Shown piece after piece: positions 27,182-61,503 of a stretch of DNA of 64,000 nucleotides (position 1 is the stretch's first letter; every line of letters begins with the position of its first letter). The notes under the pieces were generated by a model. That model saw nothing but the letters and a program-made list of their open reading frames with translations. It had not been told where the DNA came from and did not search any database. A program made the translations under genes and the position numbers. Origin of the DNA: Mesorhizobium sp. (lineage in GTDB: Bacteria > Pseudomonadota > Alphaproteobacteria > Rhizobiales > Rhizobiaceae); assembly GCF_017306545.1 (NCBI RefSeq), contig NZ_JAFKID010000032.1, positions 32,801 to 96,800 of the forward strand. Reading direction: 5' to 3'.

Positions 27182-27195
27182 TTGATGTGTGTCAA
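27182..27195. promoter_or_regulatory. FNR/FixK-like box
   Basis: TTGATGTGTGTCAA matches TTGAT-N4-ATCAA with one change. Its centre lies about 60 bases upstream of the usp start at 27248; the divergent cytochrome c gene starts about 200 bases the other way. Confidence 0.65.
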
Positions 27196-27247
27196 GGCGC
27201 GGCGATCGGTCAGGGAGGACGCTTACCATGTGAACGGAGGTCTGGTG

Positions 27248-28066
27248 ATGGTCTATAATACGATCATGGTGCAACTCGACATAGACGCGCGGGCTACACC
27301 ACGACTGGCCTTCGCTTGGAGTCTTGCCCGGCGCTTCGAGGCTAAACTGATCGCGTTTTGCGCCGCGGAGCCATACCTATCGATTCCAGAGGACATCGAC
27401 GGTAGCGCGTCGTCGGTCAAGATGCAGCAGAAGTGCATCGAGATTGACGAGCAGTTGAAGGCGCTGAAGTCGGAATTCGAACATCTCGTGGGCAAAAATC
27501 ACGGTTCTTGGCGTGGTATGGTCGGTGACCCGACGAAATTGCTTGCATATCACGCCCGCGCGGCCGACCTGCTGGTCGCCAGCGCCAACAACGGGGTTGC
27601 AAGCGGCCTTCGCACAGTCTTTCCGGGTGAATTGATCCTGTCGGCTGGCCGTCCTGTCCTGTTTCCAAATGAACGTCATGAGCCTATGGCTGCCGCCAAT
27701 GTCCTTGTGAGCTGGAAAGATACGCGCGAAGCGAGGCGTGCTGTGGTCGACGCCATGCCGTTTCTTGTCACTGGGCAACAGGTTCTCGTTGCGACGATCG
27801 AGGACGACGACAAGCACAGCGCTCACCAGAGCGTGGCTGAGGTCGTTCGTTTTCTCGTGAGGCACGGGGTGAAGGCGCGGTCGAAAGTGATCGATGCGAA
27901 CGACCGCCAGGCACCGGAGGCGCTTCTGAACGAAGCGAAAGAAATTGGCGCTGATCTGATTGTCTCCGGCGGATATGGGCACAGCCGGTTGCGGGAGTGG
28001 ATTTTCGGTGGTGTTACGCTGTCCCTGCTTGCGGATCATTCCATCAACCGGCTGATGGCGAACTAG
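27248..28066 (+). CDS. Universal stress protein, two UspA domains
   Basis: 272 aa from an ATG preceded by GGAGG. It has two UspA domains: the first with a divergent loop, the second with the intact nucleotide-binding signature SGGYGHSRLREWIFGGVT. The ANVLVSWKDTREARRAVVDA start of the second domain is nearly the same as in the usp at 34134, so the two are paralogues. Likely an ATP-binding survival factor under low oxygen, controlled by the FNR-like box 53 bases upstream. Confidence 0.88.
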   Translation: MVYNTIMVQLDIDARATPRLAFAWSLARRFEAKLIAFCAAEPYLSIPEDIDGSASSVKMQQKCIEIDEQLKALKSEFEHLVGKNHGSWRGMVGDPTKLLAYHARAADLLVASANNGVASGLRTVFPGELILSAGRPVLFPNERHEPMAAANVLVSWKDTREARRAVVDAMPFLVTGQQVLVATIEDDDKHSAHQSVAEVVRFLVRHGVKARSKVIDANDRQAPEALLNEAKEIGADLIVSGGYGHSRLREWIFGGVTLSLLADHSINRLMAN

Positions 28067-28248
28067 CCGGCATGTTCGTAGGATTACTCCGGGATCCTCG
28101 CCTGCCACGACATGTCGACCGCTTCCCTGCCAAGGTTTCTCTACCAACGGCTTCGATTGATGAGCCCGACTTGAGTTGCCGACACCGGCATAGCGATCCA
28201 CTTCGAGCGAGCATACCCTGAACGAAGAATCCAGCCTCCAGATAACAT

Positions 28249-28262
28249 TTGACGCGCGTCAA
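28249..28262. promoter_or_regulatory. FNR/FixK-like box upstream of arcD
   Basis: TTGACGCGCGTCAA is a perfect palindrome of the form TTGAC-N4-GTCAA, 62 bases before the arcD start. It differs from the FNR consensus symmetrically at one position per half. Confidence 0.6.
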
Positions 28263-28324: not shown

Positions 28325-29791
28325 ATGGCCGCTACAGACCTTTCCACTTCCGCAACGTCGGTCTCGGAAAAGACCGACAGCAAGCTCCGTCTCGGCGCGC
28401 TGACCGCGCTGGTCATCGGCTCAATGGTCGGTTCGGGCGTGTTCAGCCTGCCGCAGAACATGGCGGCCGGCGCGGGACCGCTCGCCATCCTGATCGGCTG
28501 GGGCATCACCGCCGTCGGCATGCTGGCGCTCGTCTTCGTCTACCAGTCGCTCGCCGTGCGCAAGCCGAGGCTGGACGCCGGCCCCTACGCCTACGCCAAG
28601 GCCGGATTCGGGCCGTTCATCGGCTTCAACAGCGCCTGGGGCTACTGGATCAGCGCGTGGGTTGGCAACGTCTCCTACGCGGTGATCGTCTTTTCGGCGC
28701 TGTCCTATTTCTATCCGGCGTTCGGCGACGGCAACACATGGCAGGCCGTGCTCGGCGCCTCGGTCCTTTTGTGGCTCATCCACATCCTGATCCTCGCCGG
28801 CGTGCGCCAGGCGGCGATCGTCAACCTCGTCGTCACCGTTGCCAAGATCGCGCCCATCGTCCTGTTCATCGGCATCGTCGCCGTTGCCTTCAAGATCGAC
28901 GTCTTTTCAGCCGACTTCAGCGGGCTCGGCAATGCCAGCCTCGGCTCGGTCATGAGCCAGGTCAAGAGCACCATGCTGGTGACGCTGTGGGTGTTCATCG
29001 GCATCGAGGGCGCCAGCGTCTTTTCGGCGCGCGCGGAACGGCGCCAGGACATCGCGACCGCGACCGTGCTCGGCTTCCTCACCTGCCTGGCGCTTTATGC
29101 GCTGGTGTCGCTTTTGTCGCTCGGCATCATCAACCAGCCGGAACTCGCCGGATTGAAGAACCCGTCCGTGGCGGGCGTGCTGGAGGCGGTCGTCGGCCCC
29201 TGGGGCGCCATCCTCATCAACCTGGCGCTGGTGGTATCGGTCGCCGGTGCCTTTCTCTCCTGGACACTGCTGGCGGCCGAGGTGCCGCACGTCGCCGGGA
29301 AGGACGGCACCATGCCGAAGTTCTTCGCCCATGAGAGCGAGCGCGGCGTGCCCTCTACGTCGCTGCTGGTCACCAATCTCCTGGTGCAGGCGTTCCTCAT
29401 CATCACGCTGTTCGCGCAGAGCACCTACCAGGCGCTGTTCTACATCGCCTCCGCCGCCATCCTGGTGCCCTACATCTTCTCCGGAGCCTATGCGGCCAAG
29501 CTCGCCATCACCGGCGAGAGCTACAAGACCGGAGAGAGCCGCAACGGCGCGCTGCTGATGGGCCTCGTTGCCACGGTCTACGGCCTCTGGCTCGTCTATG
29601 CTGCCGGGCTCTCCTATCTCTTCATGTGCGCGATCCTCTATGCGCCCGGCATCGTCTTCTACGTCTGGGCACGGCGCGAGAACCGGGAGCGTGTCTTCCA
29701 TCCGGTTGAGGCCGTCCTCGCGGCCGCCCTCGTCGCCGTCGGCCTCTATGCCGCCTACGCAATGGCGACCGGCGCCGTCAGCGCGCTCTGA
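28325..29791 (+). CDS. arcD: Arginine/ornithine antiporter ArcD
   Basis: 488 aa APC-superfamily transporter with 12 or so membrane helices. The first helix carries the substrate-site GSMVGSGVFSLPQNMA, and LDAGPYAYAKAGFGPFIGFN follows. It also has LLAAEVPHVAGKDGTMPKFF, typical of basic amino-acid antiporters of arginine deiminase operons. It imports arginine in exchange for ornithine at no energy cost, feeding arcA, which starts 30 bases downstream. It is the first gene of arcDABC, with an FNR-like box in front. Confidence 0.92.
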   Translation: MAATDLSTSATSVSEKTDSKLRLGALTALVIGSMVGSGVFSLPQNMAAGAGPLAILIGWGITAVGMLALVFVYQSLAVRKPRLDAGPYAYAKAGFGPFIGFNSAWGYWISAWVGNVSYAVIVFSALSYFYPAFGDGNTWQAVLGASVLLWLIHILILAGVRQAAIVNLVVTVAKIAPIVLFIGIVAVAFKIDVFSADFSGLGNASLGSVMSQVKSTMLVTLWVFIGIEGASVFSARAERRQDIATATVLGFLTCLALYALVSLLSLGIINQPELAGLKNPSVAGVLEAVVGPWGAILINLALVVSVAGAFLSWTLLAAEVPHVAGKDGTMPKFFAHESERGVPSTSLLVTNLLVQAFLIITLFAQSTYQALFYIASAAILVPYIFSGAYAAKLAITGESYKTGESRNGALLMGLVATVYGLWLVYAAGLSYLFMCAILYAPGIVFYVWARRENRERVFHPVEAVLAAALVAVGLYAAYAMATGAVSAL

Positions 29792-29821
29792 CGCGGCCCG
29801 ACTTTCCGAAAAGGATGAGAC

Positions 29822-31039
29822 ATGACAGCCCTCGGCGTCCATTCCGAAACCGGCCGGCTGCGCGAAGTGATCGTGCACCGGCCCGACCTCAGCCTGCGCC
29901 GGCTCACCCCGGACAATTGCAAGGCGTTGCTGTTCGACGACGTGCTGTGGGTCAAGCGGGCGCGGCAGGAGCACGACGTCTTCGTCGACGCGTTGCGCGA
30001 GCGTCATGTGACGGTGCATTCCTTCAACGACTTGCTGGCCGAGACCATGGCCGACGCCGAGGCGCGCGACTGGCTGCTCGACCGTCGGGTCGACGCTTCG
30101 GTCGTCGGCTACGACATGGTGGACGAACTGCGCGGCTGGCTGGACGAAATGCCAGCGGACCAGATTGCCTCTTTCCTGGTCGGCGGCATCGCGCGGGCCG
30201 AATTGCCGTTCCGGCCAACCGGCCTCACTGGCAAGACGCTGCTGCCACAGGATTTCGTGCTGCCGCCGCTGCCCAATCAGCTCTTCACACGCGACAGCTC
30301 GTGCTGGATCTACCGATCCATCTCGGTGAACGCGATGTACTGGCCGGCACGAAAGCCGGAGGCGGTCAATGTCGAAGCCGTCTATCGCTTTCATCCGCGC
30401 TTTCGCGACGCCGGCCTGCCCTTCGTTTCCCCCGACAATCCCGGTCCCGGCGTCAGCCTGGAAGGCGGCGACGTGATGCCGGTCGGCGGCGGCATCGTGC
30501 TGGTCGGCATGGGAGAACGCACCACGCCTCAGGCGGTTGGCGGGCTGGCTCGCAGCCTGTTCGCCGCCGGCGAGGCCACCCGCGTCATCGCCGCGCTGAT
30601 GCCGCGCGACCGCTCCTTCATGCATCTCGATACCGTCTTCACCTTCTGCGACCGCGATCTCGCGACCATGTATCCACCGGTGGTCGAGCGGCTGCGCGCC
30701 TTCTCGCTGCGGCCCGGCGACGGCGAGGCGGCCGTCGACGTGGTCGAGGAGGAAAAGCCCTTCACCGAGGTCGTCAGGGAAGCGCTCGGCCTGAAGGCGC
30801 TGCGCGTCGTCGCCACCGGCGGCGACAGCTACCAGTCGGAACGCGAGCAGTGGGACGACGGCAACAACGTCGTCGCCGTTGAGCCCGGCGTCGTCATCGG
30901 CTACGACCGCAACGTCTACACCAACACGCTGCTACGCCGCGCCGGCATCGAGGTGATCACCGTCGAGGGCGCGGAGCTGAGCCGCGGCCGCGGCGGCGGC
31001 CATTGCATGAGCTGCCCGATCGCGCGCGATCCGCTCTGA
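29822..31039 (+). CDS. arcA: Arginine deiminase ArcA
   Basis: 405 aa, normal length. It hydrolyses arginine to citrulline and ammonia. Recognised parts are the substrate loop [43 protein letters not shown] with the catalytic histidine and aspartate, and the C-terminal [15 protein letters not shown] with the nucleophilic cysteine. The start is GGATGAGAC-ATG-like with a GGA Shine-Dalgarno. Second gene of arcDABC. Confidence 0.95.
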
Positions 31040-31054
31040 CCGAGGAGAGAACAT

Positions 31055-32056
31055 ATGCCCGTCAACCTGCACGGCCGCAACGTCCTGACGCTGGACGATT
31101 TTTCCGGCGCGGAAATCCGCTATCTTCTCAGGCTGGCGGCCGATCTCAAGACCGCCAAGCGGGCCGGCAACGAAGTGCCGCGTCTAGCGCGCAAGAACAT
31201 CGCGCTGATCTTCGAGAAGGATTCCACCCGCACACGCACAGGCTTCGAAGTGGCCGCCTACGACCAGGGCGCGCACGTCACCTATATCGGGCCGTCCGGC
31301 AGCCACATCGGCCATAAGGAATCGATGAAGGATACGGCGCGCGTGCTGGGACGCATCTACGACGCGATCGAGTATCGCGGCATCTCCCAGCACCAGGTGG
31401 AACTGCTCGCCGCCTATGCCGGCGTTCCGGTCTATAACGGCCTGACCGACCTGGACCATCCGACGCAGATCCTGGCTGATTTCATGACCATGCGTGAGTT
31501 CACCCACAAGCACCTGTCCGACATGACCGTCGCTTTCGTCGGTGAAGGAAAGGATAACGTTGCCCAGGCGCTCGCCGTCGGCGCGGCGAAGGTCGGCATC
31601 GACATGCGCATCGCCTCTCCCCGGAGGCTATGGCCCGAGCAGGATTTCTGCACCCATGTCAAAGCGTTGGCCGAGCGCAACGGAGGGCGGTTCAGGATGG
31701 ATGCCGACGTGGAGGCCTGCGTCAAAGGGGCCGACTTCATTTACACCGACGTCTGGCTGTCCATGGGCGAGGACGAAAGCGCCTGGGGCGAGCGCATCAA
31801 GCTCCTTACGCCCTACCGGGTCACGCGCAAGCTGATAGCCGCGACCGGAAATCCGTATACCAAATTCATGCATTGCCTGCCCGCCTTCCACGATACCGAG
31901 ACGGAAGTAGGCCGCCATGTCGCCAGCAAATACGGGATAGACTGCATGGAGGTCGAGGACGCGGTGTTCGAATCGGAAGCCTCCATCGTCTTCGATCAGG
32001 CGGAGAACCGCATGCATACTATCAAGGCGATCCTCGTCGCCACGATCGGCGATTGA
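31055..32056 (+). CDS. arcB: Catabolic ornithine carbamoyltransferase
   Basis: 333 aa. It has the carbamoyl-phosphate motif [20 protein letters not shown] and the [20 protein letters not shown] segment that marks the catabolic ArcB class, then [14 protein letters not shown] and HCLPAFHD. It phosphorolyses citrulline to ornithine and carbamoyl phosphate. It starts 15 bases after arcA with a GAGGAGAG Shine-Dalgarno, and arcC follows two bases after its stop. Confidence 0.94.
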
Positions 32057-32058
32057 CG

Positions 32059-32967
32059 ATGCGCATCGTCGTCGCCCTGGGCGGCAATGCTCTGCTGAAG
32101 CGCGGCGAGCCGATGACGGCCGAAAACCAGCGCGCCAATGTCCGCAGGGCGGCCGTAGAGCTTGCCGAACTGGTGAAAGCCGGCCATTCGCTGGTGATAA
32201 CGCACGGTAACGGGCCGCAGGTCGGCCTGCTGGCGCTGCAGGCGGCGGCTACGTCCGGCACGCCCTTTCCGCTCGACGTGCTCGATGCGGAGACGGCCGG
32301 CATGATCGGCTATGTCATCCAGCAGGAACTTGGAAACGTGGTGAAGGACCGACCCGTCGCCACACTGCTGACCCAGGTGCGGGTCGATCCGCACGATCCC
32401 GCCTTTGCCACGCCGACCAAGCCGATCGGCCCGGTCTACGACGAAGCCACGGCCCGCCGGCTCGCTGCCGAGCGCGGCTGGGCGGTCGCTCCCGATAACG
32501 ACAAGTGGCGCCGCGTGGTGCCGTCGCCGAAGCCGCTGGAAATCCTGGAAGCCGCCGTGCTCGCCTTCCTCGTCGAGCACGGTGTCATCGTTATCTGCGC
32601 CGGCGGCGGCGGTATCCCGGTTGTCGAACTGAACGGCGGCGGCATCGCCGGCGTCGAGGCCGTCATCGACAAGGACCTTGCCTCCTCGCTGCTAGCACGG
32701 CAACTCGGCGCGGACATGCTCGTCATGCTGACAGACATCGACGCAGTCTATCTCGACTGGGGGATGCCGAAGGCCCGTCCGCTCAGCCGGCTGCAGGCCG
32801 GCGACCTCTCCGCCGCAGCGTTTGCCTCCGGTTCGATGGGGCCGAAGGTCGAGGCTGCCATTGCGTTCGCAACAGAGACCGGTCAGCCGGCCGCAATAGG
32901 CAAGCTGGAAGACGCTGTCGAAATCGTCGCCGGACGGCGAGGAACCCGCATCAATTCCGGGGGCTGA
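32059..32967 (+). CDS. arcC: Carbamate kinase ArcC
   Basis: 302 aa from the ATG two bases after the arcB stop. Motifs: [15 protein letters not shown] at the start, [41 protein letters not shown] and [13 protein letters not shown], all carbamate kinase hallmarks. It makes ATP from carbamoyl phosphate and ADP, the energy-yielding step of the arginine deiminase pathway. Last gene of arcDABC. Confidence 0.94.
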
Positions 32968-33116: not shown

Positions 33117-33500
33117 ATGTTGACGAACGATTTGCCGCCGACTTTCCGCCACGTCAGACTCCTGCTCGCCCGCGAGCGAGGCCATCCTCAGGGCGAACGA
33201 AGCGAAGGATATGACCTTCTCATCCCACTCGATAAAGACGGCAGGCTCGATCCTGCACTCTGGAAGGCTAATCAGGCGGCATGTCGGGTCAGGCGTTTTG
33301 CCGGTGACTCGAATGTTGGCGTAGGCCGTCTGCGGCGAAAGAAGGGCGGTCAGTGGTACTTCGACTACGCGGAAGGCGAAGAAGACGACGAGCTTGGGTT
33401 TCGCCTGGCGGATGAGCGCTTCATTACCGGTGAATATGTATCGATCGGAAGCAAGGGAACAATGCACACCTATCAGGTCGCCCGTGTCGAGAAGCCCTGA
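33117..33500 (+). CDS. Hypothetical protein of the anoxic island
   Basis: 127 aa from MLTNDLPPTFRHVRLLLARE; an in-frame ATG at 33075 is less likely because the FNR-like box would sit too near. It contains GERSEGYDLLIPLDKDGRLD, then RVRRFAGDSNVGVGRLRRKK and GQWYFDYAEGEEDDELGFRL. It is charged and cytoplasmic with no known domain that I recognise. The pattern GYDLLIPLD...G.L..W.....C.VRRF looks like a conserved small rhizobial family. It precedes a usp by 12 bases and is probably co-transcribed with it. Confidence 0.65.
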   Translation: MLTNDLPPTFRHVRLLLARERGHPQGERSEGYDLLIPLDKDGRLDPALWKANQAACRVRRFAGDSNVGVGRLRRKKGGQWYFDYAEGEEDDELGFRLADERFITGEYVSIGSKGTMHTYQVARVEKP

Positions 33501-34133: not shown

Positions 34134-34955
34134 ATGAGCTATAGATCCATCCTCGTGAACCTCGACATCGACGGACCTGTCGTCCCGGTCGTGAAAGCAG
34201 CCGCCGATCTTGCAGGACGCTTCCAGGCGAAGCTGATCGGCCTTTGCGCCGCCGACGCTCCCATCGTCGTGGCCGGGCCGGCCGGTGCCGGCCTAGCCGC
34301 CGAGGCATGGATGCAAATGCGCGACGACATTAAGTCCCGCTTCAAGGATGTGCATGACAAGTTCGGCAAGCTGATCGCCGGCAAGGCCATGACTGAATGG
34401 CGTGAGACGCTCGACAATCCGACGCGCGCCGTGGCGGAGGCCGCGCGGGCGGCGGACCTGATCGTGTTGGGCGCGGTCGAAGGCGCGGCAACGGGCGACG
34501 CTTACCGGCAGGCGGATCCCGGGAGCATCGCCCTTCAGGCGGGACGGCCCCTGCTCGTCGTCGCCCGCGACACCGAACAAGTGCGGGCTAGGAACATCGC
34601 CGTCGCCTGGAAGGATACGCGCGAGGCACGTCGCGCCCTCGCCGATTCACTGCCGCTGTTGAAGGCGGCAGAGACCGTGACGGTCGTGACGGTCGCCACC
34701 GAGGTCGACCAATGGGTACGCGCAAGCCTCGCAGACGTGATGGCCTTTCTTGGAGCGCATGGCGTCGAAGCACGGCCGGAACTGATCGAAGGCCCCGACG
34801 AACACCTCGCGCTGTTCGAGGCGCTGGACAACAGCGGCGCCGACCTGATCGTGTCGGGAGCGTACGGCCATAGCCGCCTGCGGGAATGGGCTTTTGGCGG
34901 CGTGACGCGCTCGCTGCTCGACGAAACAGGCCGGAACCGCTTCATGGCAAGCTGA
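34134..34955 (+). CDS. Universal stress protein, two UspA domains
   Basis: 273 aa with two UspA domains. The first (YRSILVNLDIDGPVVPVVKA) lacks a full nucleotide loop. The second (NIAVAWKDTREARRALADSL) ends in SGAYGHSRLREWAFGGVTRS, the ATP-binding signature. It is close in sequence to the usp at 27248. A consensus FNR/FixK box precedes it, and the P-type ATPase gene follows with about 95 bases between. Confidence 0.88.
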   Translation: MSYRSILVNLDIDGPVVPVVKAAADLAGRFQAKLIGLCAADAPIVVAGPAGAGLAAEAWMQMRDDIKSRFKDVHDKFGKLIAGKAMTEWRETLDNPTRAVAEAARAADLIVLGAVEGAATGDAYRQADPGSIALQAGRPLLVVARDTEQVRARNIAVAWKDTREARRALADSLPLLKAAETVTVVTVATEVDQWVRASLADVMAFLGAHGVEARPELIEGPDEHLALFEALDNSGADLIVSGAYGHSRLREWAFGGVTRSLLDETGRNRFMAS

Positions 34956-35050
34956 CGGAAGCACACTATGTCCTGTCTGTTGCAGCGGGCGCCATCATTC
35001 GCGGCGAGCGGCCGCCGATAGCGCTTCCCCCGGCCGCGGGAGTGCCTCTT

Positions 35051-37618
35051 GTGGAACAGAAACAGGCCTCGGCGGACGGAGCGTATTGGTCGGTTCCGGC
35101 CGGAACGCTGTTGGCCAGCCTGCGTTCCGGGCCGTCGGGTCTTTCCGTCGGCGAAGCTCGAAGCAGGCTTCGCGAAGCAGGCCCGAACGCGGTCAACCGA
35201 ATGGGACGCGGCTCCGCACTCGCGGCCTTCACGCGGCAGTTCCGCAGCCCGTTGGTGCTCATCCTGATTTTCGCTGCGGTCGTCTCGGCGTTCGTGGGGG
35301 AAGGCAGCGAGGCGGTGATCATCGGCATCATCGTGCTGGCGAGTTGCGTGCTCTCGTTCACGCAGGAATACGGTGCCTCCAGAGCGATGGAGGCGCTGAC
35401 GGCGCGCATTGCCCGCAAGGCCTCCGTGCTGCGCGACGGCCGAGAAGCGTCCGTTGCCGTCGCGGAGATCGTGCCGGGCGACGTCGTTCGGCTTTCAGCC
35501 GGTAACCTTATTCCGGCGGACGGCGTGCTCTTGGAAGCGCGCGACTTCAACGTCAGCGAGGCCGCGCTCACCGGCGAAACCTTTCCCGTTATGAAAGAGC
35601 CCGGCCTCTCGGCGCCGGACGCCCAGATCGGCCAGCGCGGCAACGCGGTCTTCACTGGCACGTCCGTGCGAAGCGGCACCGCCACGATGCTTGCCGCGCG
35701 CACTGGAGGGCAGACCGAGTTCGCAGCCATCGCCGGAGCGATCGCCCGCTCCGTGCCCGAGACGGAGTTCGCGAAAGGCATCCGCCGCTTCGGCTACCTG
35801 ATGACGGAGATCATGCTGGCCATCGTCATCCTCGTCTTCTTCGCCAATCTTCTGTTGCACCGCCCAGCCGTCGACTCGCTGCTGTTTTCGCTGGCCCTGG
35901 CCGTCGGGCTGACCCCCGAGCTGCTGCCGGCGATCATCAGCGTCACGCTAGCGCGGGGCGCGCGTACCATGGCGGCGAGCGGCGTCATCGTGCGCCGGCT
36001 CGACGCCATCGAGAACCTCGGCAGCATGGATCTCCTGTGCACCGACAAGACCGGGACGTTGACGGAAGGAACCATCCGCCTGGACGGCTGCCTGGGTGCC
36101 GGCGGAACGGATTCGTCGCAGGTGCGGCTTTGGGCGCTGCTCAACGCGACGCTACAGTCCGGCATGGCAAATCCCCTTGACGAGGGAATCGCGGCCAGCA
36201 GAGGTCCTGACGACGACCTGTCCGCGTATGAGAAGATCGACGAGATTCCCTACGATTTCATCCGCAAACGGCTTTCGGTGATCGTGCGGGGGAAGGAGGC
36301 CAGCGAGGACCTGCTGATCTGCAAGGGCGCGGTCCAGAACATCGTCCAGGCCTGTTCGTCCGTTCTGGCGGGAACCGGTGTCCGGCCGCTGGACGACCGG
36401 CAGGCGAAAGCCATCGACGCCAAGGTACAAGGCTGGTGCATACAGGGGTTTCGCGTACTCGGCCTGGCAGTGCGCCGCTTCGCGCCCAGCCATGTCTACC
36501 AGCGCGAAGACGAGACAGGTCTAGCCTTCGCCGGGTTCCTGCTGTTCCTCGACCCGCCTAAGCCCGGCATGGCCGAGACGCTGAAGGCGCTGGCCGAGCG
36601 CGGCATCAAGGTGAAGGTCATATCCGGCGACAATCGTTACGTTGCCGCGCATCTGGCCGAACTCGTGGGCCTGCCCCATCGCAACGTCCTTGCCGGCGAC
36701 GAACTGGCGAATCTGACTAAGGAAGCGCTCATCGCCCTCGCAGCGCAGATCGACATCTTCGCCGAGATCGACCCCAACCAGAAGGAGCGCCTCATCGAGG
36801 CGCTGCGACGGCGTGGCCATGTCGTCGGCTATATGGGGGACGGCATAAACGACGCCCCGGCCCTGCACGAGGCCGACATCGGCATCTCCGTCGATGGCGC
36901 CGTCGACGTGGCCCGGGAGGCCGCGGACATGATCCTGCTGGAGCGCGACCTCGGCGTATTGCTGCGCGGCGTGGACGACGGCCGGCGAACCTTCGCCAAT
37001 ACGATGAAGTACGTCTCCATCACCACCAGCGCCAATTTCGGCAACATGTTCTCGATGGCCTTCGCGTCGCTCGCGCTGCCCTTCCTGCCGTTGCTGGCCC
37101 CGCAGATCCTTCTCAACAACCTGCTCTCGTCGCTGCCTTCGCTAGCCATAGCCGGCGACCGCGTGGACGCCGAACAGATCGAGGCGCCGCGCCGCTGGGA
37201 TATCGGCTCGATCCGCCGCTTCATGATCTATTTCGGTCTGGTGAGTTCCTGCTTCGATTTCGTGACCTTCGGCTTCCTGCTGCTCCTCATGCACGCGGAT
37301 GCCCGCACGTTCCGGACGGGATGGTTCGTGGAGTCTCTGCTGACCCAACTGGTGATCGTCCTCGTCATACGCACACACCAGTCCTTCTGGCGGAGCCGGC
37401 CAAGCGCGCTCCTGGCGTGGCTGACGCTGGCGATCGGCCTGCTCGCCGTAGCGATCCCCTACCTGCCGGGTTCAGCCTGGTTCGGTTTCGTGCCGTTGCC
37501 TGCGCAGACAATGGCAGGTCTTGTCGCGATCACGCTGCTTTATCTGGCCGCATCCGAAGCGACCAAACACTGGTTCTTCGCACGCGAGCGCCGGCTCGCC
37601 AGGCATCGCCGGACTTGA
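35051..37618 (+). CDS. mgtA: MgtA/P3B-type magnesium-transporting P-type ATPase
   Basis: 855 aa from a GTG with GGGAG eight bases upstream; the open frame extends further 5' but overlaps the usp and has no good start. The cation-ATPase N domain (GLSVGEARSRLREAGPNAVN), the TGETFPV actuator loop, the phosphorylation site D332 in DKTGTLTEG, the hinge GDGINDAP and about ten membrane helices are present. LPFLPLLAPQILLNNLL is typical of the magnesium (MgtA) class. It imports Mg2+ or a related cation. Its last codons contain the FNR-like box of the next gene. Confidence 0.85.
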   Translation: MEQKQASADGAYWSVPAGTLLASLRSGPSGLSVGEARSRLREAGPNAVNRMGRGSALAAFTRQFRSPLVLILIFAAVVSAFVGEGSEAVIIGIIVLASCVLSFTQEYGASRAMEALTARIARKASVLRDGREASVAVAEIVPGDVVRLSAGNLIPADGVLLEARDFNVSEAALTGETFPVMKEPGLSAPDAQIGQRGNAVFTGTSVRSGTATMLAARTGGQTEFAAIAGAIARSVPETEFAKGIRRFGYLMTEIMLAIVILVFFANLLLHRPAVDSLLFSLALAVGLTPELLPAIISVTLARGARTMAASGVIVRRLDAIENLGSMDLLCTDKTGTLTEGTIRLDGCLGAGGTDSSQVRLWALLNATLQSGMANPLDEGIAASRGPDDDLSAYEKIDEIPYDFIRKRLSVIVRGKEASEDLLICKGAVQNIVQACSSVLAGTGVRPLDDRQAKAIDAKVQGWCIQGFRVLGLAVRRFAPSHVYQREDETGLAFAGFLLFLDPPKPGMAETLKALAERGIKVKVISGDNRYVAAHLAELVGLPHRNVLAGDELANLTKEALIALAAQIDIFAEIDPNQKERLIEALRRRGHVVGYMGDGINDAPALHEADIGISVDGAVDVAREAADMILLERDLGVLLRGVDDGRRTFANTMKYVSITTSANFGNMFSMAFASLALPFLPLLAPQILLNNLLSSLPSLAIAGDRVDAEQIEAPRRWDIGSIRRFMIYFGLVSSCFDFVTFGFLLLLMHADARTFRTGWFVESLLTQLVIVLVIRTHQSFWRSRPSALLAWLTLAIGLLAVAIPYLPGSAWFGFVPLPAQTMAGLVAITLLYLAASEATKHWFFARERRLARHRRT

Positions 37619-37628
37619 TCGCGATCAA
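37615..37628. promoter_or_regulatory. Perfect palindromic FNR/FixK box overlapping the mgtA stop codon
   Basis: TTGATCGCGATCAA is a perfect 14-base palindrome and an exact FNR/FixK consensus. It overlaps the final codons of the ATPase gene and lies 52 bases before the gene at 37681. Confidence 0.75.
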
Positions 37629-37680
37629 GGGCGTCAGCCCGCGGGCCGCGTAACCTCGCCCGATCATCCGGAGAACCGCC

Positions 37681-38274
37681 ATGCCGCGCCGCGTCCTCGT
37701 CGTCCTCGGTCATCCAGACGGCAATCCGAAGCGCCTGTGCCGGGCGCTTGCCGACGCCTATGTCGAAGGCGCACGCTCGGCAGGCCATGACGTTCGGCTC
37801 ATGGACATCGCGACGCTCGATTTCCCGATCCTGCGGAGCATGGACGAGTTCACCGAACGGCCCCTGCCGGTCACGCTGGAGGACGCCGCTCGGTCGATCC
37901 GGGATGCGGAGCATCTCGTCTTCGTCTTTCCGCTGTGGCTCGGCACCATGCCGGCCCTGTTGAAAGCCTTCCTGGAACAGGTGATGCGGCCGGGCATCGC
38001 CTTCGCCTATCCCGAAGCCGGCAAGGGCGGCTTCGCCAAAACGCTGCTCAAGGGCCGTTCGGCACGCGTGGTGGTGACCATGGGCATGCCGGCCTCGTTC
38101 TATCGCTTCTGGTATCTTGGCCACGGCGTCGCTGGCATGCGTCGCAATATCCTGAACTTCGTTGGCGTCAGCCCGGTCCGTGAAACGTTGTTCGGGATGG
38201 TGGAAGGCGCGAGCGAGGCCAAGCGCAGGACGTGGATCGAGGAGGTGCGGGCGCTCGGGAAACGCGCCGGTTGA
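37681..38274 (+). CDS. Flavodoxin-fold NAD(P)H-dependent (quinone) oxidoreductase
   Basis: 197 aa of the NQO1/KefF-like family. The FMN loop is VLVVLGHPDGNPKRLCRALA, followed by VFVFPLWLGTMPALLKAFLE and the catalytic-region MGMPASFYRFWYLGHGVAGM. It reduces quinones or nitro-compounds with NAD(P)H in the cytoplasm; KefF-like members also regulate potassium efflux, but no kef gene is present here. An FNR/FixK palindrome precedes it. It converges on the alcohol dehydrogenase gene, leaving 12 bases. Confidence 0.85.
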   Translation: MPRRVLVVLGHPDGNPKRLCRALADAYVEGARSAGHDVRLMDIATLDFPILRSMDEFTERPLPVTLEDAARSIRDAEHLVFVFPLWLGTMPALLKAFLEQVMRPGIAFAYPEAGKGGFAKTLLKGRSARVVVTMGMPASFYRFWYLGHGVAGMRRNILNFVGVSPVRETLFGMVEGASEAKRRTWIEEVRALGKRAG

Positions 38275-38286: not shown

Positions 38287-39270
38287 TCATGGAACCAGAA
38301 CCGCGGCGCCGTTGAGGCGACCTTCCCGCAAGTCCTCCAGCGCTTCGTTGGCCCGAGCGAGGGGATAGGTGACGGTATGGGTTCGAACGCGCGCGGCACG
38401 GGCGACCGGGAAGAACTCCTCCGCGTCCTTTCGCGTGAGGTTCGCGACGGACACAAGCTCTCGCTCCTCCCAGAGAATCGAATAGGGCATCGCCGGGATG
38501 TCGCTCATATGAATGCCGCCGCAGACGACGCGGCCGCCCTTGCGGACCGCGTGCAGCGCCGCCGGAACCAACGAGCCGACGGGAGCGAAGATGATGGCCG
38601 CGTCGAGCGCGACGGGCGGCCCCTCGTCCGATCCGCCCGCCCATGACACGCCGAGGTTCGAGGCGAAGCGTTGCGCCGCGCTGTCGCCGGGCCGGGTGAA
38701 GGCATAGACCTCGCGTCCTTGCCAGAGACAGATCTGCGCGATGATGTGCGCGGCCGCGCCGAAACCGTAGAGGCCGATGTGCCGTCCGCTTCCTGCCCGC
38801 TTCAGCGAGCGCCAGCCGATGAGCCCTGCGCAAAGCAGCGGCGCCAGGGCGACGGCATCGGCCTCGCTATCGAGATCGAAGGCGAAATCGGCGTCCGCCA
38901 CCGCATGGGTGGCGAAGCCGCCGTCCCGCGTATAGCCGGTGAAGAGCGGCCGGTCGCAAAGGTTCTCCGCGCCGGCACGGCAGTAGGCGCAGGCGCCACA
39001 GGCATGGCCTAGCCACGGAATCCCCACGCGGTGGCCCAGCCGTTCGTGATCGACGCCTGCGCCAACCGCGTCGATGACGCCGACGATCTCGTGGCCGGGC
39101 ACGAGCGGCAGCTTCGGATGCTCCAATTCACCGTCAACCACATGCAGGTCGGTTCGGCATACGGCGCAGGCCTCCACACGAGTCCTGATTTCACCCTCAC
39201 CAGGCAAAGGATCCGCTCGCTCGATCGGTACAAGCGGCATTCGTGGTTGCTCTAGCACCATCGCCTTCAT
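38287..39270 (-). CDS. Zinc-dependent alcohol dehydrogenase (AdhP/YjgB-like)
   Basis: 327 aa from the ATG with GGGAGGAA before it. Catalytic zinc ligands: cysteine in VEACAVCRTDLH and histidine in LVPGHEIVG. The structural-zinc loop is CGACAYCRAGAENLC. The Rossmann core has GLYGFGAAAHIIAQI. It oxidises or reduces an alcohol/aldehyde with NAD(H). This subfamily (the ADH with GYTRDGGFATHAVADA) is commonly found with usp, arc and phosphoketolase genes. It shares a leftward direction with the BON gene upstream. Confidence 0.88.
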   Translation of the reverse strand: MKAMVLEQPRMPLVPIERADPLPGEGEIRTRVEACAVCRTDLHVVDGELEHPKLPLVPGHEIVGVIDAVGAGVDHERLGHRVGIPWLGHACGACAYCRAGAENLCDRPLFTGYTRDGGFATHAVADADFAFDLDSEADAVALAPLLCAGLIGWRSLKRAGSGRHIGLYGFGAAAHIIAQICLWQGREVYAFTRPGDSAAQRFASNLGVSWAGGSDEGPPVALDAAIIFAPVGSLVPAALHAVRKGGRVVCGGIHMSDIPAMPYSILWEERELVSVANLTRKDAEEFFPVARAARVRTHTVTYPLARANEALEDLREGRLNGAAVLVP

Positions 39271-39360
39271 GGATTCCTCCCGGATGGCGGAAAGCATAGG
39301 ACGAATGTGAGGCGGAAAGCCGGCTTCCCGCCTCATATAAAGTCCCAAACGCCTGTCGCG

Positions 39361-40011
39361 TCAGCCGATCGTGAGCCGGTCCTCGACGGTGTTGACTCCA
39401 GGCGCGGACCAGGCCGCCCGCTCAGCCGCGCTTCGCTCCGACCAGGCATGCACCCTTCCCTCCAGCCGGACCTTGCCGCCCTCCATGACATTGACCTTGA
39501 TCGCCTGCGCCTCGAGTTCCGCATTGCGCTTCAACGCGTCCTCGATGCGCTTCTTCACATCGAACGCGGAGGCACGCTGCTTGATCTCGATCTGGTTCGA
39601 GACGCCGACGACGCCGGCGAGATCGCGCACCGTATCCGCCGCCGCCGTCTTCTGGTACTGCCACTCGACCTTGCCCGTCAGCGTCACCCAGCCGTCCTGC
39701 ACCTTCACCTGAACGGCGCCGTCGGGAATCGATGTGTTCCAGTTGATCGTGTTGACGGCGCGTTTTGCGATCTCGTCGTCGGCGGTCCGATTTGTGCCGA
39801 AAGGTCGGACTTCGATTTCCTGGGCGATCCCCTTTACGCCCTTCACCCGGCGCACGACTTGTTCGACCGTAAGCTTCTGGGCATAGGTCGGAACGTGGCC
39901 GGTCAGCGTGGCGACGCCGTTTTCCACCGCGACGCCAATATCGGCCGCGTCGATGCTGGGCTCGAAGTCGAGCTCGTCGATGATGTCCTGTCTCAATGTG
40001 CTGTCGTTCAT
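39361..40011 (-). CDS. Protein with three BON domains
   Basis: 216 aa from MNDSTLRQDIIDELDFEPSI. Three BON repeats at about 3-70, 78-145 and 150-216, each showing VENGVATLTGHVPTY-like, VQDGWVTLTGKVEWQ-like or VMEGGKVRLEGRVHAW-like strands. No signal peptide is visible, so it may be cytoplasmic, as in some OsmY-like stress proteins. It is transcribed leftward ahead of the alcohol dehydrogenase (91-base gap), with an FNR-like box 76 bases upstream. Confidence 0.85.
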   Translation of the reverse strand: MNDSTLRQDIIDELDFEPSIDAADIGVAVENGVATLTGHVPTYAQKLTVEQVVRRVKGVKGIAQEIEVRPFGTNRTADDEIAKRAVNTINWNTSIPDGAVQVKVQDGWVTLTGKVEWQYQKTAAADTVRDLAGVVGVSNQIEIKQRASAFDVKKRIEDALKRNAELEAQAIKVNVMEGGKVRLEGRVHAWSERSAAERAAWSAPGVNTVEDRLTIG

Positions 40012-43112: not shown

Positions 43113-43871
43113 CTACTCCGACGCTTCCATACCGCGCCTACGCGCTGGGATTGTCCCCCTCGTTCCCCGGCGGACCAGTTCAGGAGACCGTTTGGTGCGG
43201 ACAATCTGATAGCCGCGCCGCCCGAAATACCACACGGGGACACTCCAGATGTGGACAAGGCGCGTGAACGGGAAGATCAGGAAGATCGTCATGCCGAGCG
43301 CGAGATGCGCGCGGAAGATGGGATTCACATTTGCGACGTAGTCGGCGGCGCCTGCCTGCAGCGTGACAATTCCCTGCGCCCATTTCATGAGCTTGACCAT
43401 CTCCTCTCCATCAAGATGGTTCGCCGATACGAGAATGGTCGAAAGGCCAAGGATAAGCTGGATGTAAAGGATAATCAGTACCGCAATATCGCTCGGATTG
43501 GAGGTCTTGCGGATACGGGCGTCGAATAGCCGCCGATGCAACAGCATGGTCAGCCCGACGAAGCAGGCAACGCCCGCGATGCCGCCGACGGTCATGGCGA
43601 GGAGCTGTTTGGCGGTATGCGAGACGCCAAGAAACCCCCAGACCTGGATCGGGGTTAGAAGTCCTGCCGTATGGCCGGCGAGGATGACGAGAATGCCGGC
43701 ATGGAAGAGGTTCGAGCCCCAGATCATCTGCCGCCTGCGCAGGAGCTGGCTGGAGTAGCTCTTCCACGAATATTGCTCGCGGTCGAAGCGGATCAGGCTT
43801 CCGACAAGGAAGACGGTCAGGCAGAGATAGGGATAGATGCCGAAGACCGCGAAATTGAGATATGAAAACAT
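43113..43871 (-). CDS. narI: Respiratory nitrate reductase gamma subunit NarI
   Basis: 252 aa with five membrane helices. It has the NarI start YLNFAVFGIYPYLCLTVFLV, DREQYSWKSYSSQLLRRRQM, and heme-ligand histidines in SNLFHAGILVILAGHTAG and ALGMTIFLIFPFTRLVHIWS. It takes electrons from quinol to NarH across the membrane. Gene order narG-narH-narJ-narI is canonical. Confidence 0.95.
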   Translation of the reverse strand: MFSYLNFAVFGIYPYLCLTVFLVGSLIRFDREQYSWKSYSSQLLRRRQMIWGSNLFHAGILVILAGHTAGLLTPIQVWGFLGVSHTAKQLLAMTVGGIAGVACFVGLTMLLHRRLFDARIRKTSNPSDIAVLIILYIQLILGLSTILVSANHLDGEEMVKLMKWAQGIVTLQAGAADYVANVNPIFRAHLALGMTIFLIFPFTRLVHIWSVPVWYFGRRGYQIVRTKRSPELVRRGTRGTIPARRRGMEASE

Positions 43872-43889
43872 GAGTTCCCTCTCGCCGCT

Positions 43890-49100: not shown

Positions 49101-49824
49101 CGGCGGATTCGGCGACGTCTGTCTGTTCGCCCCAAGTCTGCGGCGAGGACGGCGGCAGGTCGCAGTACCAGTCGTAGAATGACAGGCAGGTGCCCCCGAG
49201 CAGCGAAAGGTAGCGCGTGCCGGCAGCATAGGAAACCATCGACATGGCGGGGATCGGCGAGAACCCCGCCACGCGATCAGGGCCATGTTTCCTCACTGTG
49301 TAGGCGTTGGCGGCGGCGACGATCTCGTTGGCCTCGTCCCAATCCGCCCGCACGAAACCACCATGGCCGCGGATGGACGTATAGGAACTGCGCTTTTGCG
49401 CGTCCTCCACGATCGAGGCCCAGGCGGCGACCGGCGCCTTGGTCTTGCGCGCCTCACGCCACAACCTGAGCAGGCGCCCCCGCACAAGTGGGTATTTCAC
49501 ACGATTGCCGGAATAGAGATACCACGAATAGCTCGCCCCTCTGGGACAGCCGCGCGGCTCGTGGTTGGGCAAGTCTGGACGGGTTCGCGGGTAGTCAGTC
49601 TGCTGCGTCTCCCAGGTGACGATCCCGCCTTTGACATAAATCTTCCACGAGCAGGAGCCCGTGCAGTTCACGCCATGTGTCGAGCGCACGATCTTGTCGT
49701 GCTGCCATCGCTTCCGGTAGCCGTCTTCCCAAACGCGGTTCTCGCCGGTGACGATGCCGTGACCATCGGAGAACGTCGCGAGTTCCTTGCGAAAGAACAT
49801 TAGCCGATCGAGGAAGTGGCTCAT
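46099..49824 (-). CDS. narG: Respiratory nitrate reductase alpha subunit NarG
   Basis: 1241 aa from MSHFLDRLMFFRKELATFSD, with AAGGAG before the ATG. Near the N-terminus HGVNCTGSCSW gives the His-Cys ligands of the FS0 4Fe-4S cluster. YCDLPPSSPQTWGEQTDVAE carries the aspartate ligand of molybdenum, marking a membrane-bound Nar enzyme. It reduces nitrate to nitrite in the cytoplasm, using the molybdo-bis-MGD cofactor. First gene of a narGHJI-parvulin-orf operon; no narK is adjacent. All long motifs are intact. Confidence 0.96.
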   Translation of the reverse strand: MSHFLDRLMFFRKELATFSDGHGIVTGENRVWEDGYRKRWQHDKIVRSTHGVNCTGSCSWKIYVKGGIVTWETQQTDYPRTRPDLPNHEPRGCPRGASYSWYLYSGNRVKYPLVRGRLLRLWREARKTKAPVAAWASIVEDAQKRSSYTSIRGHGGFVRADWDEANEIVAAANAYTVRKHGPDRVAGFSPIPAMSMVSYAAGTRYLSLLGGTCLSFYDWYCDLPPSSPQTWGEQTDVAESADWYNAGFLILWGSNVPQTRTPDAHFYTEARYKGTKSAVVSPDYAEATKFADIWLQPQQGTDAALALAMGHVILKEYHVERQVPYFADYARRYTDMPMLVRLVKKGDSYVPDRFVRASDFDGGLGEHENAEWKTVGLDETSGEVVAPHGTAGFRWEKQRGRWNLEEKDGKGRDIRLKLSQIGGGEAVPVAFPDFGGRAHSHFVRTEHGELLIRAVPASRVKLAEGEALVATVFDLLCANYGIDRGLGDENAANSYNQDMPCTPAWAEKVTGVPRQAIITVAREFATNAEKTNGRSMVILGAGLNHWYHMDMSYRAIINMLVMCGAIGQSGGGWSHYVGQEKLRPQTGWLPLAFALDWNRPPRQMNGTSFFYAHSDQWRYETLSVSEILSPTAPDGDWSGSMIDYNVRAERMGWLPSAPQLRANPLDLAAKANAKGQEPADYVVSALKSGELELACQDPDHPDNWPRNLFVWRSNLLGSSGKGHEYFLKHLLGTYHGVLGKDLGEEGREKPKEVVWRDEAPKGKLDLLVTLDFRMSTTCVYSDIVLPTATWYEKNDLNTSDMHPFIHPLSAAVDPVWGSRTDWDIYRGIARAFSKVAPEVLGVETDVVLTPIQHDSPGELAQPLDVKDWKRGETDPVPGLTMPQVSVVERDYPNLGKRFTALGPLMDKLGNGGKGIAWETSHEVKALKALNGVVPDEGSTRGLARIETDIDAAEVILMLAPETNGAVAVRSWEALSKRTGREHAHLAMPKEDEKIRFRDVVAQPRKIISSPIWSGLESEHVCYNAGYTNVHELIPWRTLTGRQQLYQDHLWMRAFGEGFATWKPPVDLKTVAGALKANHDGSPHVVLNFITPHQKWGIHSTYSDNLLMLTLNRGGPVVWISETDAKKAGIRDNDWIEAFNRNGVLVARAVVSQRVNPGMCLMYHAQEKIVNVPGSPITGQRGGIHNSVTRTVLKPTHMIGGYVHQAYGFNYYGTVGSNRDEFVIVRKMGTVDWMEEKLEAAE

Positions 49825-58541: not shown

Positions 58542-58554
58542 TGGTTACCTCAAA

Positions 58555-58670: not shown

Positions 58671-60566
58671 TCATGGAACATGCCCAACCGCTGCAGTGTG
58701 CAGCGGCTCAATCCCACGCCGCGGCCTGTCTGAGGAAATCCGCAAGGCGCGCAGAGCGTTCAGGATGACCGCCACGTCGATCGCCTCCTGAAGCAGTGAG
58801 CCCTGCACCGGCGTTAGATAACCGAGAGCGGCCGCAATCATGCCTGCGATCGAAAGGCCTATGCCCGCCACGACGCTTTCAAGGGCGATCCACCGCGACT
58901 GGCTGGCTACGTTCAGCCCCGAGATGAGCCGGCCGAGATCATCGATCAAGAGGACGACGTCGGCGGCTTCCGCTGAAGCAGCCGCGCCTCGCGCACCCAT
59001 GGCCACGCCGATGTCGGCTGCCGCCAGCGCCGGCGCGTCGTTTACGCCATCTCCTACCATCATCACCGGCCCGTTCTTTCGTTCGCTTAGAATCAGGAGG
59101 ACCTTCTGGTCTGGCGTCAACTCGGCACGAATCCCGTCGAGGTCGAGGCCTTCGGTTACAGCTTCGGCAACGGCGTGGCGGTCGCCCGTAGCGAGCAGGA
59201 TCCGATTGATGCCATGGCGGCGGATGCCGGCAAGGAACTCGGCCGTTTCCGCACGCAGCGGGTCGGCCAAGATCAGATTGCCGACGAGTTGGCCGTCAAC
59301 GGCAACGGAAACAGTGGCCGACCCTTCCTCGGATCCCTTATGCGGAACAACCGGCACACCGATTCCACGCATTACGAAATCGCGTCCGCCGACCACGACA
59401 GAGCGACCCCCGATGCGCGCCGCTACGCCCTCCCCGGGAATTTCCCTGATATCGGTCGGTACCGGCAGAACCACGCCTTTTGTGAGTGCAGCCGCGACGA
59501 TTGCCTGCGCCATAGGATGTTTCGAGGCCTGGTCGGCGGCGGCCGCGAGATGGAGCACCTCTTCCGCCGGCAAGGCGGCACAGGTCTCGATGGACACGAT
59601 TTGCGGCCGTCCGTCAGTTAAGGTGCCGGTTTTGTCCAGGACCAGCGTTCGCGCCTGCGCGAGCGCCTCAAGCGGTCTTGCGCCCTTGATCAGCACGCCG
59701 AAGTGCGCGGCGCGCGACAGGCCCGCGACGAGCGCCACCGGCACGGCGAGAATGAGTGGGCACGGCGTGGCGACCACCAGCACGGCCACCGCACGGATGG
59801 GGTCACCCGTCATCCACCATGCCGCTGCCGCCAGTGTAACCGTGACGACGAGGAACAAGATCGAATAACGGTCTGCCAGCCGCGACATCGGCGCCTTCGA
59901 GCGCTGCGCATCCTCGACCAGACGCACGATCCCGGCATAGGTGCTTTCAGCTGCGCGGCGGCTGGCGCGCATATCGAAGGCCTCGCCCGCATTGGTCGAG
60001 CCACTCATCACCTCCTGCCCGCGCGCCAGCCTGACGGGCATCGATTCTCCAGTCATCGCAGACTGGTCAAGCACCGCGCGCACACTCTCGACCTTCCCGT
60101 CGACGGGAGCGACGTCCCCTTGTCGTATTAGAAGAAGGTCGCCGGGCACGATTTCATCGAGCGGAATTTCTTCCAGCGCGCCGTCGCTATGACGGGTCGC
60201 GGTGCGTGGAACGCGCGAAAGAAGATCGTGCATCTCGCGCCGGGCACGACCTTCGGCAAAGCTTTCGAGGAAAGTGCCCCCCGAATACATCAAGGCGACG
60301 ACGGCTGCTGCAAGCGTTTCGCCGAAGGCCAGCGCGGCCGACATCGACAAGGCCGCCACGACGTCGAGGCCGACTTCGCGTCTCAGCAGGCTCCGGACGA
60401 TCTCGACGACGAGCGCCACAAGGACGGGAGTCACGCCTGCCGCCCAAGCCGTCCGGGCAAGTTCTGCCTTTCCGGCCAAGCTCAGGCCGATCCCCGCAGC
60501 GAGACCGGCAAGGGCGACGGCCAGCAGGGCGATCTTGAAGTCGGCGCGGGCTTTCTCGCTGGTCAT
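58671..60566 (-). CDS. P1B-type heavy-metal P-type ATPase with TPCPL motif
   Basis: 631 aa. The actuator loop is TGES at 172-175, the membrane metal motif TPCPL at 267-271, the phosphorylated D311 in DKTGTLTDG, and a GDGVNDAPAL hinge. Eight membrane helices are expected. There is no N-terminal metal-binding HMA domain. The TPCPL form replaces the CPC motif of copper pumps or the SPC of cobalt pumps, so the metal is uncertain; exporters of this form have been linked to Mn or Zn. It follows in the same direction as the usp at 60583, separated by 16 bases, implying one transcript. Confidence 0.88.
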   Translation of the reverse strand: MTSEKARADFKIALLAVALAGLAAGIGLSLAGKAELARTAWAAGVTPVLVALVVEIVRSLLRREVGLDVVAALSMSAALAFGETLAAAVVALMYSGGTFLESFAEGRARREMHDLLSRVPRTATRHSDGALEEIPLDEIVPGDLLLIRQGDVAPVDGKVESVRAVLDQSAMTGESMPVRLARGQEVMSGSTNAGEAFDMRASRRAAESTYAGIVRLVEDAQRSKAPMSRLADRYSILFLVVTVTLAAAAWWMTGDPIRAVAVLVVATPCPLILAVPVALVAGLSRAAHFGVLIKGARPLEALAQARTLVLDKTGTLTDGRPQIVSIETCAALPAEEVLHLAAAADQASKHPMAQAIVAAALTKGVVLPVPTDIREIPGEGVAARIGGRSVVVGGRDFVMRGIGVPVVPHKGSEEGSATVSVAVDGQLVGNLILADPLRAETAEFLAGIRRHGINRILLATGDRHAVAEAVTEGLDLDGIRAELTPDQKVLLILSERKNGPVMMVGDGVNDAPALAAADIGVAMGARGAAASAEAADVVLLIDDLGRLISGLNVASQSRWIALESVVAGIGLSIAGMIAAALGYLTPVQGSLLQEAIDVAVILNALRALRISSDRPRRGIEPLHTAAVGHVP

Positions 60567-60582
60567 CGAGGCGCTGTGGCGA

Positions 60583-61419
60583 TCAGTGCGATATCAGGAT
60601 CGGCAGGCGCAAATCGCGCAGGATGCCATCGGTCGCTCCGCCTAGGATGAAATCGCGCACACGCGTATGACCGTAGCCGCCCATCACGAGAAGGCCGGCG
60701 CTGCGTTGAACGGCGTTCTCCTGCAAGGTGACGGCAACGTCGCCGCCGCCGCTCAGCACGGCGTGAGCCTCGGCGGGAAGGCCGCGTTCCCGCAACCCCA
60801 CTGCGAGCCGGGCGCCGGGATCGTCCTCCGGCAGGTCCTTCTCGTCGGTCACAGTCAGGACCGTGATCCTCGACGCCTTCCGCAGCAGCGGGGCTGCGTC
60901 GGCGACGGCCCTGGCCGCGACGCGACTGCCGTCCCATGCGATTGCCACATGGTCGAAGGCAGCTGGCTGGACCAATTCGGGAAGTAGGATCACCGGGCGA
61001 CCGGAGCCAAAGATGACATCCTCGGCCAGCGTATGCGTGCTTTCATTCGCGGCTTCCCAGCCAATGAGGACAAAGTCGAAGTAGCGTGCCCGGTTTGCAG
61101 CGAGATCGCCCAACAACGGCAGGGAGGTCGCCGTCCGATCGGTGACGAGCTTGACACCTGCCGACATCGCCTCGTCCGTCACGACGCGGAGGATGTCCTC
61201 GCCATTCCTGCGACTCCTTGCATTCGCCTCCCTGATCAGTTCCGGCGTGTTCAAGAGGAACTTGGAAAGGGCATTCGACACGGGCGGGATGTCAGCGTTC
61301 ACGGCAAGGGCATGCAATTCCGCCTCCAACTGCGCCGACACGATAGTCGCGTTCGATCCGACATGCGGTGAGACCGGGTCGGGGTACGTCACCAGCGGAA
61401 GCAAGGCCTGGAGTTTCAT
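60583..61419 (-). CDS. Universal stress protein, two UspA domains
   Basis: 278 aa with two UspA domains. The second begins DHVAIAWDGSRVAARAVADA and ends VMGGYGHTRVRDFILGGATD, an intact nucleotide-binding loop. It is transcribed divergently from the usp at 61599, with an FNR-like box between them, and heads the transcript that includes the P1B ATPase. Confidence 0.9.
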   Translation of the reverse strand: MKLQALLPLVTYPDPVSPHVGSNATIVSAQLEAELHALAVNADIPPVSNALSKFLLNTPELIREANARSRRNGEDILRVVTDEAMSAGVKLVTDRTATSLPLLGDLAANRARYFDFVLIGWEAANESTHTLAEDVIFGSGRPVILLPELVQPAAFDHVAIAWDGSRVAARAVADAAPLLRKASRITVLTVTDEKDLPEDDPGARLAVGLRERGLPAEAHAVLSGGGDVAVTLQENAVQRSAGLLVMGGYGHTRVRDFILGGATDGILRDLRLPILISH

Positions 61420-61489
61420 GGGTCACATTCCTGTTTCGGGCATGTCGATCGACGAGCATGCAGATTCCGCCAGAAGCTGCCTGCTTTCC

Positions 61490-61503
61490 TTGACCGGGAT
61501 CAA
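61490..61503. promoter_or_regulatory. FNR/FixK-like box between divergent usp genes
   Basis: TTGACCGGGATCAA fits TTGAC-N4-ATCAA. It is 70 bases from the leftward usp start and about 95 from the rightward start, so it may act on both. Confidence 0.6.

Follow-up and report, generated by a model that had tools for sequence, protein, structure and literature searches.

Genes and palindromes in the window

The window considered here is a stretch of 64,000 nucleotides from Mesorhizobium sp. (contig NZ_JAFKID010000032.1, positions 32,801 to 96,800), in which genes for universal stress proteins (Usp) stand alongside an arginine deiminase pathway operon, a NAD(P)H:quinone-type reductase (NQO), a BON-domain protein with an alcohol dehydrogenase (ADH), and P-type ATPases (Table 1). 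A sequence-only reading of this DNA proposed that seven FNR/FixK-like palindromes of the form TTGAY-N4-RTCAA precede usp genes, arcDABC, the NQO-like reductase, BON plus ADH, and a divergent usp pair as a candidate anoxia regulon. The gene names all hold, the coordinates of the seven sites are exact, and the window contains no further match. The palindromes probably serve as promoter sites of a larger regulon under FixK, the last member of a FixL-FixJ-FixK relay.

Exactly seven exact matches occur in the window, where 100 shuffles give a mean of 0.19 and a maximum of 2. Dropping the inner Y and R (TTGA-N6-TCAA) returns the same seven sites and no others. With one mismatch allowed, the 14 window matches compare with a shuffle mean of 3.97, and the seven extra sites are not clearly above chance. 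Alternative spacings from N0 to N14 yield 0-2 matches each, while none of 11 further permutations of the half-site letters has a strict match and one of them gives 1 loose match. Eleven GC-richer half-sites score at least 7 loose matches, as expected at 62% GC.

Gene calls, which are home-made and hand-corrected, cover 86% of the window, yet the centers of all seven boxes fall outside called genes. Six boxes share no base with a called gene, and the box at 37615 overlaps the last 4 bases (the stop codon) of the magnesium-type ATPase gene. The distance from box end to start codon is 52, 62, 51, 76, and 52 bases for the boxes at 27182, 28249, 33052, 34044, and 37615, respectively, 75 bases for the BON gene on the minus strand, and 70 and 95 bases for the divergent usp pair; the gap of 95 assumes that the plus-strand usp gene starts at ATG 61599, and a start at 61536 would give 32. 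Counted from the box end, the proposed distance of 50-95 bases is borne out (51-95, eight genes).

Table 1. Predicted boxes and associated genes, in window coordinates
Feature	Position	Strand	Remarks
FixK-type box TTGATGTGTGTCAA	27182-27195	+	GG on gene side; kept in M. composti CC-YTH430
usp gene, 272 residues, Usp family	27248-28066	+	
FixK-type box TTGACGCGCGTCAA	28249-28262	+	GG on gene side; box before arcD homologues in 3/10 other loci
arcD-arcA-argF-arcC, arginine deiminase pathway operon	28325-32967	+	arcD 28325-29791, arcA 29822-31039, argF 31055-32056, arcC 32059-32967
FixK-type box TTGACCTTCATCAA	33052-33065	+	Without GG; kept in M. composti, shifted in Mesorhizobium sp. Root552
Conserved protein, 127 residues, function not assigned	33117-33500	+	No Pfam or NCBIfam match
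usp gene, 164 residues	33513-34007	+	
FixK-type box TTGATCGGTATCAA	34044-34057	+	GG on gene side; TAGATT 22 bases beyond
usp gene, 273 residues	34134-34955	+	
Magnesium-type P-type ATPase, after usp gene	34886-37618	+	TIGR01524 over cut-off
FixK-type box TTGATCGCGATCAA	37615-37628	+	GG on gene side; TAACCT 23 bases beyond
NAD(P)H:quinone-type reductase (Flavodoxin_2)	37681-38274	+	
Zinc-binding alcohol dehydrogenase	38287-39297	-	TIGR02822 over cut-off (run on 38287-39336)
BON-domain protein	39361-40011	-	
FixK-type box TTGACGGGGATCAA	40087-40100	-	GG towards BON
usp gene, 278 residues	60583-61419	-	Followed by heavy-metal-type P-type ATPase gene, 58671-60566
FixK-type box between divergent usp genes	61490-61503	.	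GG towards minus-strand gene
usp gene, 279 residues from ATG 61599	61599-62438	+	Longer open reading frame from 61536

Distribution across the genome

The genome (4.82 Mb, 66 contigs) holds 31 matches to the box, against 2 for the reversed pattern. As many as 24 of these lie on six contigs (C2, C32, C33, C35, C38, and C43) that together measure 287,067 bases, and 7 on the remaining 4.53 Mb. All 24 are read as preceding genes, in one case a gene remnant; at 882, 7394, 7537, and 15167 on C43, this reading depended on corrected gene calls or on a gene that the calls had overlooked, and it is least certain at 7394. The genes nearby encode, among others, Nramp, P-type ATPases, DUF2267, Usp, a baeRF-family protein, LTXXQ proteins, cytochromes c, Hsp20, HlyD, and thioredoxin, and one site lies in a ccoN/usp divergence. 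The set is larger than the seven sites first described.

Five of the seven sites off these contigs are inside genes or open reading frames, a sixth precedes a heavy-metal ATPase gene by ∼190 bases, and the last precedes another gene by ∼240 bases. A GG pair directly adjoins the box at 16 of the 24 six-contig sites and at none of the other seven. Because the window shuffle rate, scaled up, allows ∼14 chance sites per genome, the seven need no explanation, and they look like chance. Equal numbers of matches inside coding sequence, named beforehand as a refutation of the regulon, are not what the genome presents, with 5 of 31 sites inside genes or open reading frames.

Conservation of the boxes

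A scan of GTDB contigs with the 273-residue Usp (34134-34955) detects 190 relatives, of which the best 80, representing 79 loci, were kept; these include several loci per genome and many from Mesorhizobium, and are therefore not independent. A strict box lies within 300 bases upstream in 64 of the 79 loci. Of the boxes at these loci, 65 out of 69 start 63-104 bases before the match, and their N4 core is variable. Across the 1.22 Mb of sequence, 262 strict boxes contrast with 0 for the reversed pattern.

The remaining genes were followed across the family (61 genomes, own genome excluded) by counting TTGA-N6-TCAA within 400 bases upstream of a match. A box is present before arcD in 3/10 other loci, NQO in 5/9, the plus-strand usp of the divergent pair in 16/25, and BON in 3/3. 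With the own loci included (203 kb), the total is 54 boxes against 2 reversed. For the gene of the 127-residue protein, 30 loci out of 68 matches were compared, and a strict box precedes it in 13 of the 29 other loci. Among 150 genomes of the order, 67 have a homologue of this protein, and a second copy, 67% identical, is encoded on contig C5 of its own genome.

Closely related strains retain the arrangement. In M. composti CC-YTH430, the closest named relative detected, gene order and six boxes are kept, the compared stretch stopping short of the seventh, and Mesorhizobium sp. Root552 has five, before arcD, the 127-residue protein gene, usp, NQO, and the usp pair. Four aligned NQO promoters have invariant half-sites and a variable core; likewise, the half-sites of the divergent usp promoter are invariant while its core changes.

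Promoter geometry

The pooled loci comprise 335 distinct strict boxes, 153 of which carry a one-sided GG; 111 of these are left after removal of near-duplicates. TANNNT starts 21-25 bases beyond the box on the GG side in 26/111 cases and on the other side in 10/111 (Fisher p=0.006), the strongest single offset being 22 (17 vs 6). Divergent promoters may account for the smaller peak on the non-GG side. If offset 22 is taken as position -12, the transcription start would lie 40.5 bases away from the axis of the box, as mapped for FixK2 at nosR in Bradyrhizobium (PMC5582078). G is enriched two bases beyond the pooled boxes, in agreement with the NG that ends the published consensus TTGANCNNGATCAANG, and six of the seven window boxes have GG on the gene side. 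Position, spacing, conservation elsewhere, and association with a -10-like element support the assignment of the window sites as predicted promoter elements.

Candidate regulators

In the genome, the HTH_Crp_2 profile gives 20 matches, 10 over the cut-off; six of these are full-length CRP/FNR proteins, the only ones read, and the other four are weak (27-28 bits). Two gene sets, on C43 and C32, consist of fixL, fixJ, a gene for a 113-residue protein, and fixK. The two FixK proteins share 202 of 227 residues and an ETVSR recognition helix, which follows the E..SR rule for this helix. They lack the cluster cysteines of FNR, with cysteines only at 3, 61, 111 (and 213); among solved structures, FixK2 (4i2o) comes nearest to them. 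Structures matched by the C43 FixL include FixL heme domains such as 1d06. On similarity and gene order, the regulators are filed as FixK-like and FixL-like, and proteins without a cluster cysteine are assigned to FixK in the literature (PMC2908626). As the genome has two FixL-FixJ-FixK sets, and none of the six full-length proteins has the complete set of FNR cluster cysteines, FixK is the likely activator. The earlier FNR/FixK assignment is supported as to the promoter elements and as to the genes, which are of types known from low-oxygen regulons of rhizobia; FixK under FixLJ is likelier to act on them than an iron-sulfur FNR.

The gene between fixJ and fixK (L028 3250-3591, L032 3712-4053) encodes, by eye, a degenerate receiver domain in both sets; its C32 copy has no Pfam match. 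The product might tune FixLJ.

An oxygen-sensing FNR or FnrN with a 4Fe-4S cluster could in principle bind the same sites, as the box consensus is common to FNR and FixK, and TTGANCNNGATCAANG is published for both FnrN and FixK (PMC4999443). One candidate for such a protein, a CRP/FNR protein on C39, carries a CxxC pair close to the N-terminus, and its score with the FnrL model is 76.6 bits. No match in the genome reaches the FnrL cut-off of 300 bits, however, and by eye the C39 protein is missing the third N-terminal cysteine and has HTNK, not ETVSR, in its recognition helix, which makes an iron-sulfur sensor an improbable owner of the sites.

Regulators of the NnrR/DNR type, through which the genes would answer to nitric oxide and denitrification rather than oxygen, are no easier to accept. 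Two proteins with an HTVSR helix are encoded on C33 and C35, both box-rich contigs, the window holds nar genes, and a published DNR set includes a usp and nar genes (PMC2908626). Yet narGHJI is without a full box, and promoters of the NnrR group share only 6 of 10 conserved motif positions in the published account, whereas all seven window sites fit TTGAY-N4-RTCAA fully. The idea that the seven are chance palindromes, to which the likely chance sites elsewhere in the genome lend a precedent, has next to no weight: shuffles, other spacings, permuted half-sites, the comparison of coding with non-coding sequence, and conservation all oppose it, as had been claimed for the placement of the sites, and boxes in 64 of 79 usp loci contradict it.

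Proposed mechanism

The seven palindromes are best explained, with a probability of roughly 0.85, as FixK sites that would turn on anoxia-survival genes jointly via a FixLJ relay. As oxygen falls, the PAS-domain kinase FixL would phosphorylate FixJ, and phosphorylated FixJ would raise fixK expression. FixK, a CRP/FNR-family activator that is not expected to sense oxygen through an iron-sulfur cluster, would bind all seven palindromes; its dimers on TTGA-N6-TCAA, centered ∼40.5 bases before the start, would aid RNA polymerase as a class II activator. The predicted targets, namely the Usp proteins, arginine fermentation (arcDABC), the flavin reductase, BON/ADH, and the 127-residue protein and its partners, would constitute one anoxia-survival program, itself part of the 24-site regulon, which is present partly in two copies. 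What is observed are the sites, with their promoter position, spacing to a -10-like element, and conservation, as well as two sets of fixLJK genes. From these we infer binding and activation by FixK, oxygen sensing by this FixL, and the purpose of the program.

Several points weigh against this explanation. The box is missing at homologues in other loci (arcD 7/10, NQO 4/9, usp 9/25), and a strict TANNNT accompanies only two of the seven window boxes, 34044 and 37615. The regulators miss their NCBIfam equivalog cut-offs, with 174.9 of 300 bits for FixK and 527.9 of 850 bits for FixL, though FixK and FixL are the best models. The published consensus cannot tell FixK, FnrN, and DNR apart, and it cannot be established that the box-rich contigs form a single replicon. 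The seven-site case is, moreover, a sequence-based one, in which expression and binding are predicted.

A nifH profile search of the genome gives no match that reaches the cut-off, so nitrogen fixation does not seem to be what the relay serves here; its task appears to be survival of anoxia, in a setting without nitrogenase. The seven palindromes are extended to a testable low-oxygen regulon with a probable sensor relay and promoter geometry, and the flavin reductase, BON/ADH, Nramp, thioredoxin, and the conserved 127-residue protein are added as candidate members.

Duplicated islands and neighboring genes

Parts of the regulon are present in diverged copies. Stretches of the window within 34615-37743 and 58735-64000 have counterparts on C2 at 79-87% nucleotide identity; between C32 and C43 the identity is 78-92%. 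C38 and C2 both end within one homologous stretch, in C38 at a phosphoketolase gene, a pattern suggesting that the assembly broke at a repeat. The paralogous NQO gene on C2 is a short start remnant (L025 10287-10420), before which the box and promoter are kept. As regards a possible plasmid location, two repC genes are found, on C59 and C3, and none on the box-rich contigs.

A broader reading, which we rate at somewhat under even odds, is that a near-Mesorhizobium with no recognizable nifH has retained a pair of FixLJ-FixK sets, and parts of an anoxia-survival island in two diverged copies (∼79-87% nucleotide identity), with boxes in both. The relay, familiar from nitrogen fixation, would then serve a dormancy-like program rich in Usp, cation ATPases, and arginine fermentation, with the 127-residue family as an unrecognized member of such programs across the order.

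The window harbors further features. narGHJI (43113-49824, minus strand) has no TTGA-N6-TCAA box, though it is an expected low-oxygen target; it was considered as a regulon member and set aside, its only candidate site being a loose TTG-N8-CAA at 50042, 1 of 23 such matches in the window. An anaerobic sulfatase-maturase-type radical SAM protein (40440-41726, TIGR03942 over cut-off) is divergent from BON, with box 40087 ∼340 bases upstream. A large CoA-ligase/ATP-grasp protein with a C-terminal GNAT domain (23024-25708) is without an upstream box. The alphaproteobacterial small RNA ar14 has an Rfam match of 85.4 bits at 17954-18074. A gene pair of the error-prone polymerase type at 7778-12570, with members of the DNA polymerase III alpha and impB/mucB families, is presumably imuB/dnaE2-like.

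Comparison with known systems

Literature searches on FixK or its box together with universal stress proteins, one of them also with arginine deiminase and oxygen limitation, returned no paper, a result that weighs little with subscription literature mostly outside their reach. A close parallel is pSymA of Sinorhizobium meliloti, which carries fixLJ and fixK1 with a FixK-type motif; the density of that motif follows the co-regulated regions of pSymA, one of them with the arc operon (PMC5596199). Two pSymA stretches hold relatives of the plus-strand usp, BON, the heavy-metal ATPase, NQO, FixK, and FixL among TTGA-N6-TCAA boxes, and pSymA arcA has a box ∼300 bases upstream. The FixLJ-FixK relay of S. 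meliloti is tied to nitrogen fixation, in contrast with the nifH result in the window's genome. Bobik 2006 is reportedly a study of FixJ and oxygen in this species. The co-regulation on pSymA, unlike the response proposed here, is published from nitrogen-limited polyhydroxybutyrate mutants (PMC5596199).

The FixK2 regulon of Bradyrhizobium diazoefficiens resembles the present one in its TTGA-N6-TCAA boxes; its nosR start lies 40.5 bases from the axis, the distance predicted here (PMC5582078), and Usp proteins are among those raised in microoxia in this species (PMC6515984). It differs as a chromosomal symbiosis and denitrification regulon, and Bradyrhizobium FixK2 carries a redox cysteine, which according to the literature is confined to the Bradyrhizobiaceae (PMC2908626). 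In Rhizobium leguminosarum, an anaerobox TTGA-N6-TCAA precedes a small heat-shock gene that is microaerobically induced (PMC11784457); a similar case here is the box on the upstream side of the C43 Hsp20 gene, roughly 230 bases away. The regulator is FnrN in that species, whereas FixK is proposed here.

Beyond the Alphaproteobacteria, the low-oxygen-activated (lxa) locus of Burkholderia cenocepacia has six Usp proteins that are raised jointly with a heat-shock protein and with a flavin/nitro reductase, and a FixK-type regulator has been suggested for it (PMC6127331); this betaproteobacterial locus is likened to the window by its published description. Published core sets of FNR and DNR also include Usp genes, and the FixK set an alcohol dehydrogenase (PMC2908626). 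The arrangement is therefore already known from related soil bacteria, and so is the mechanism itself; what this usp-rich example adds is the size of the regulon, the duplication of parts of it, and the conserved 127-residue family.

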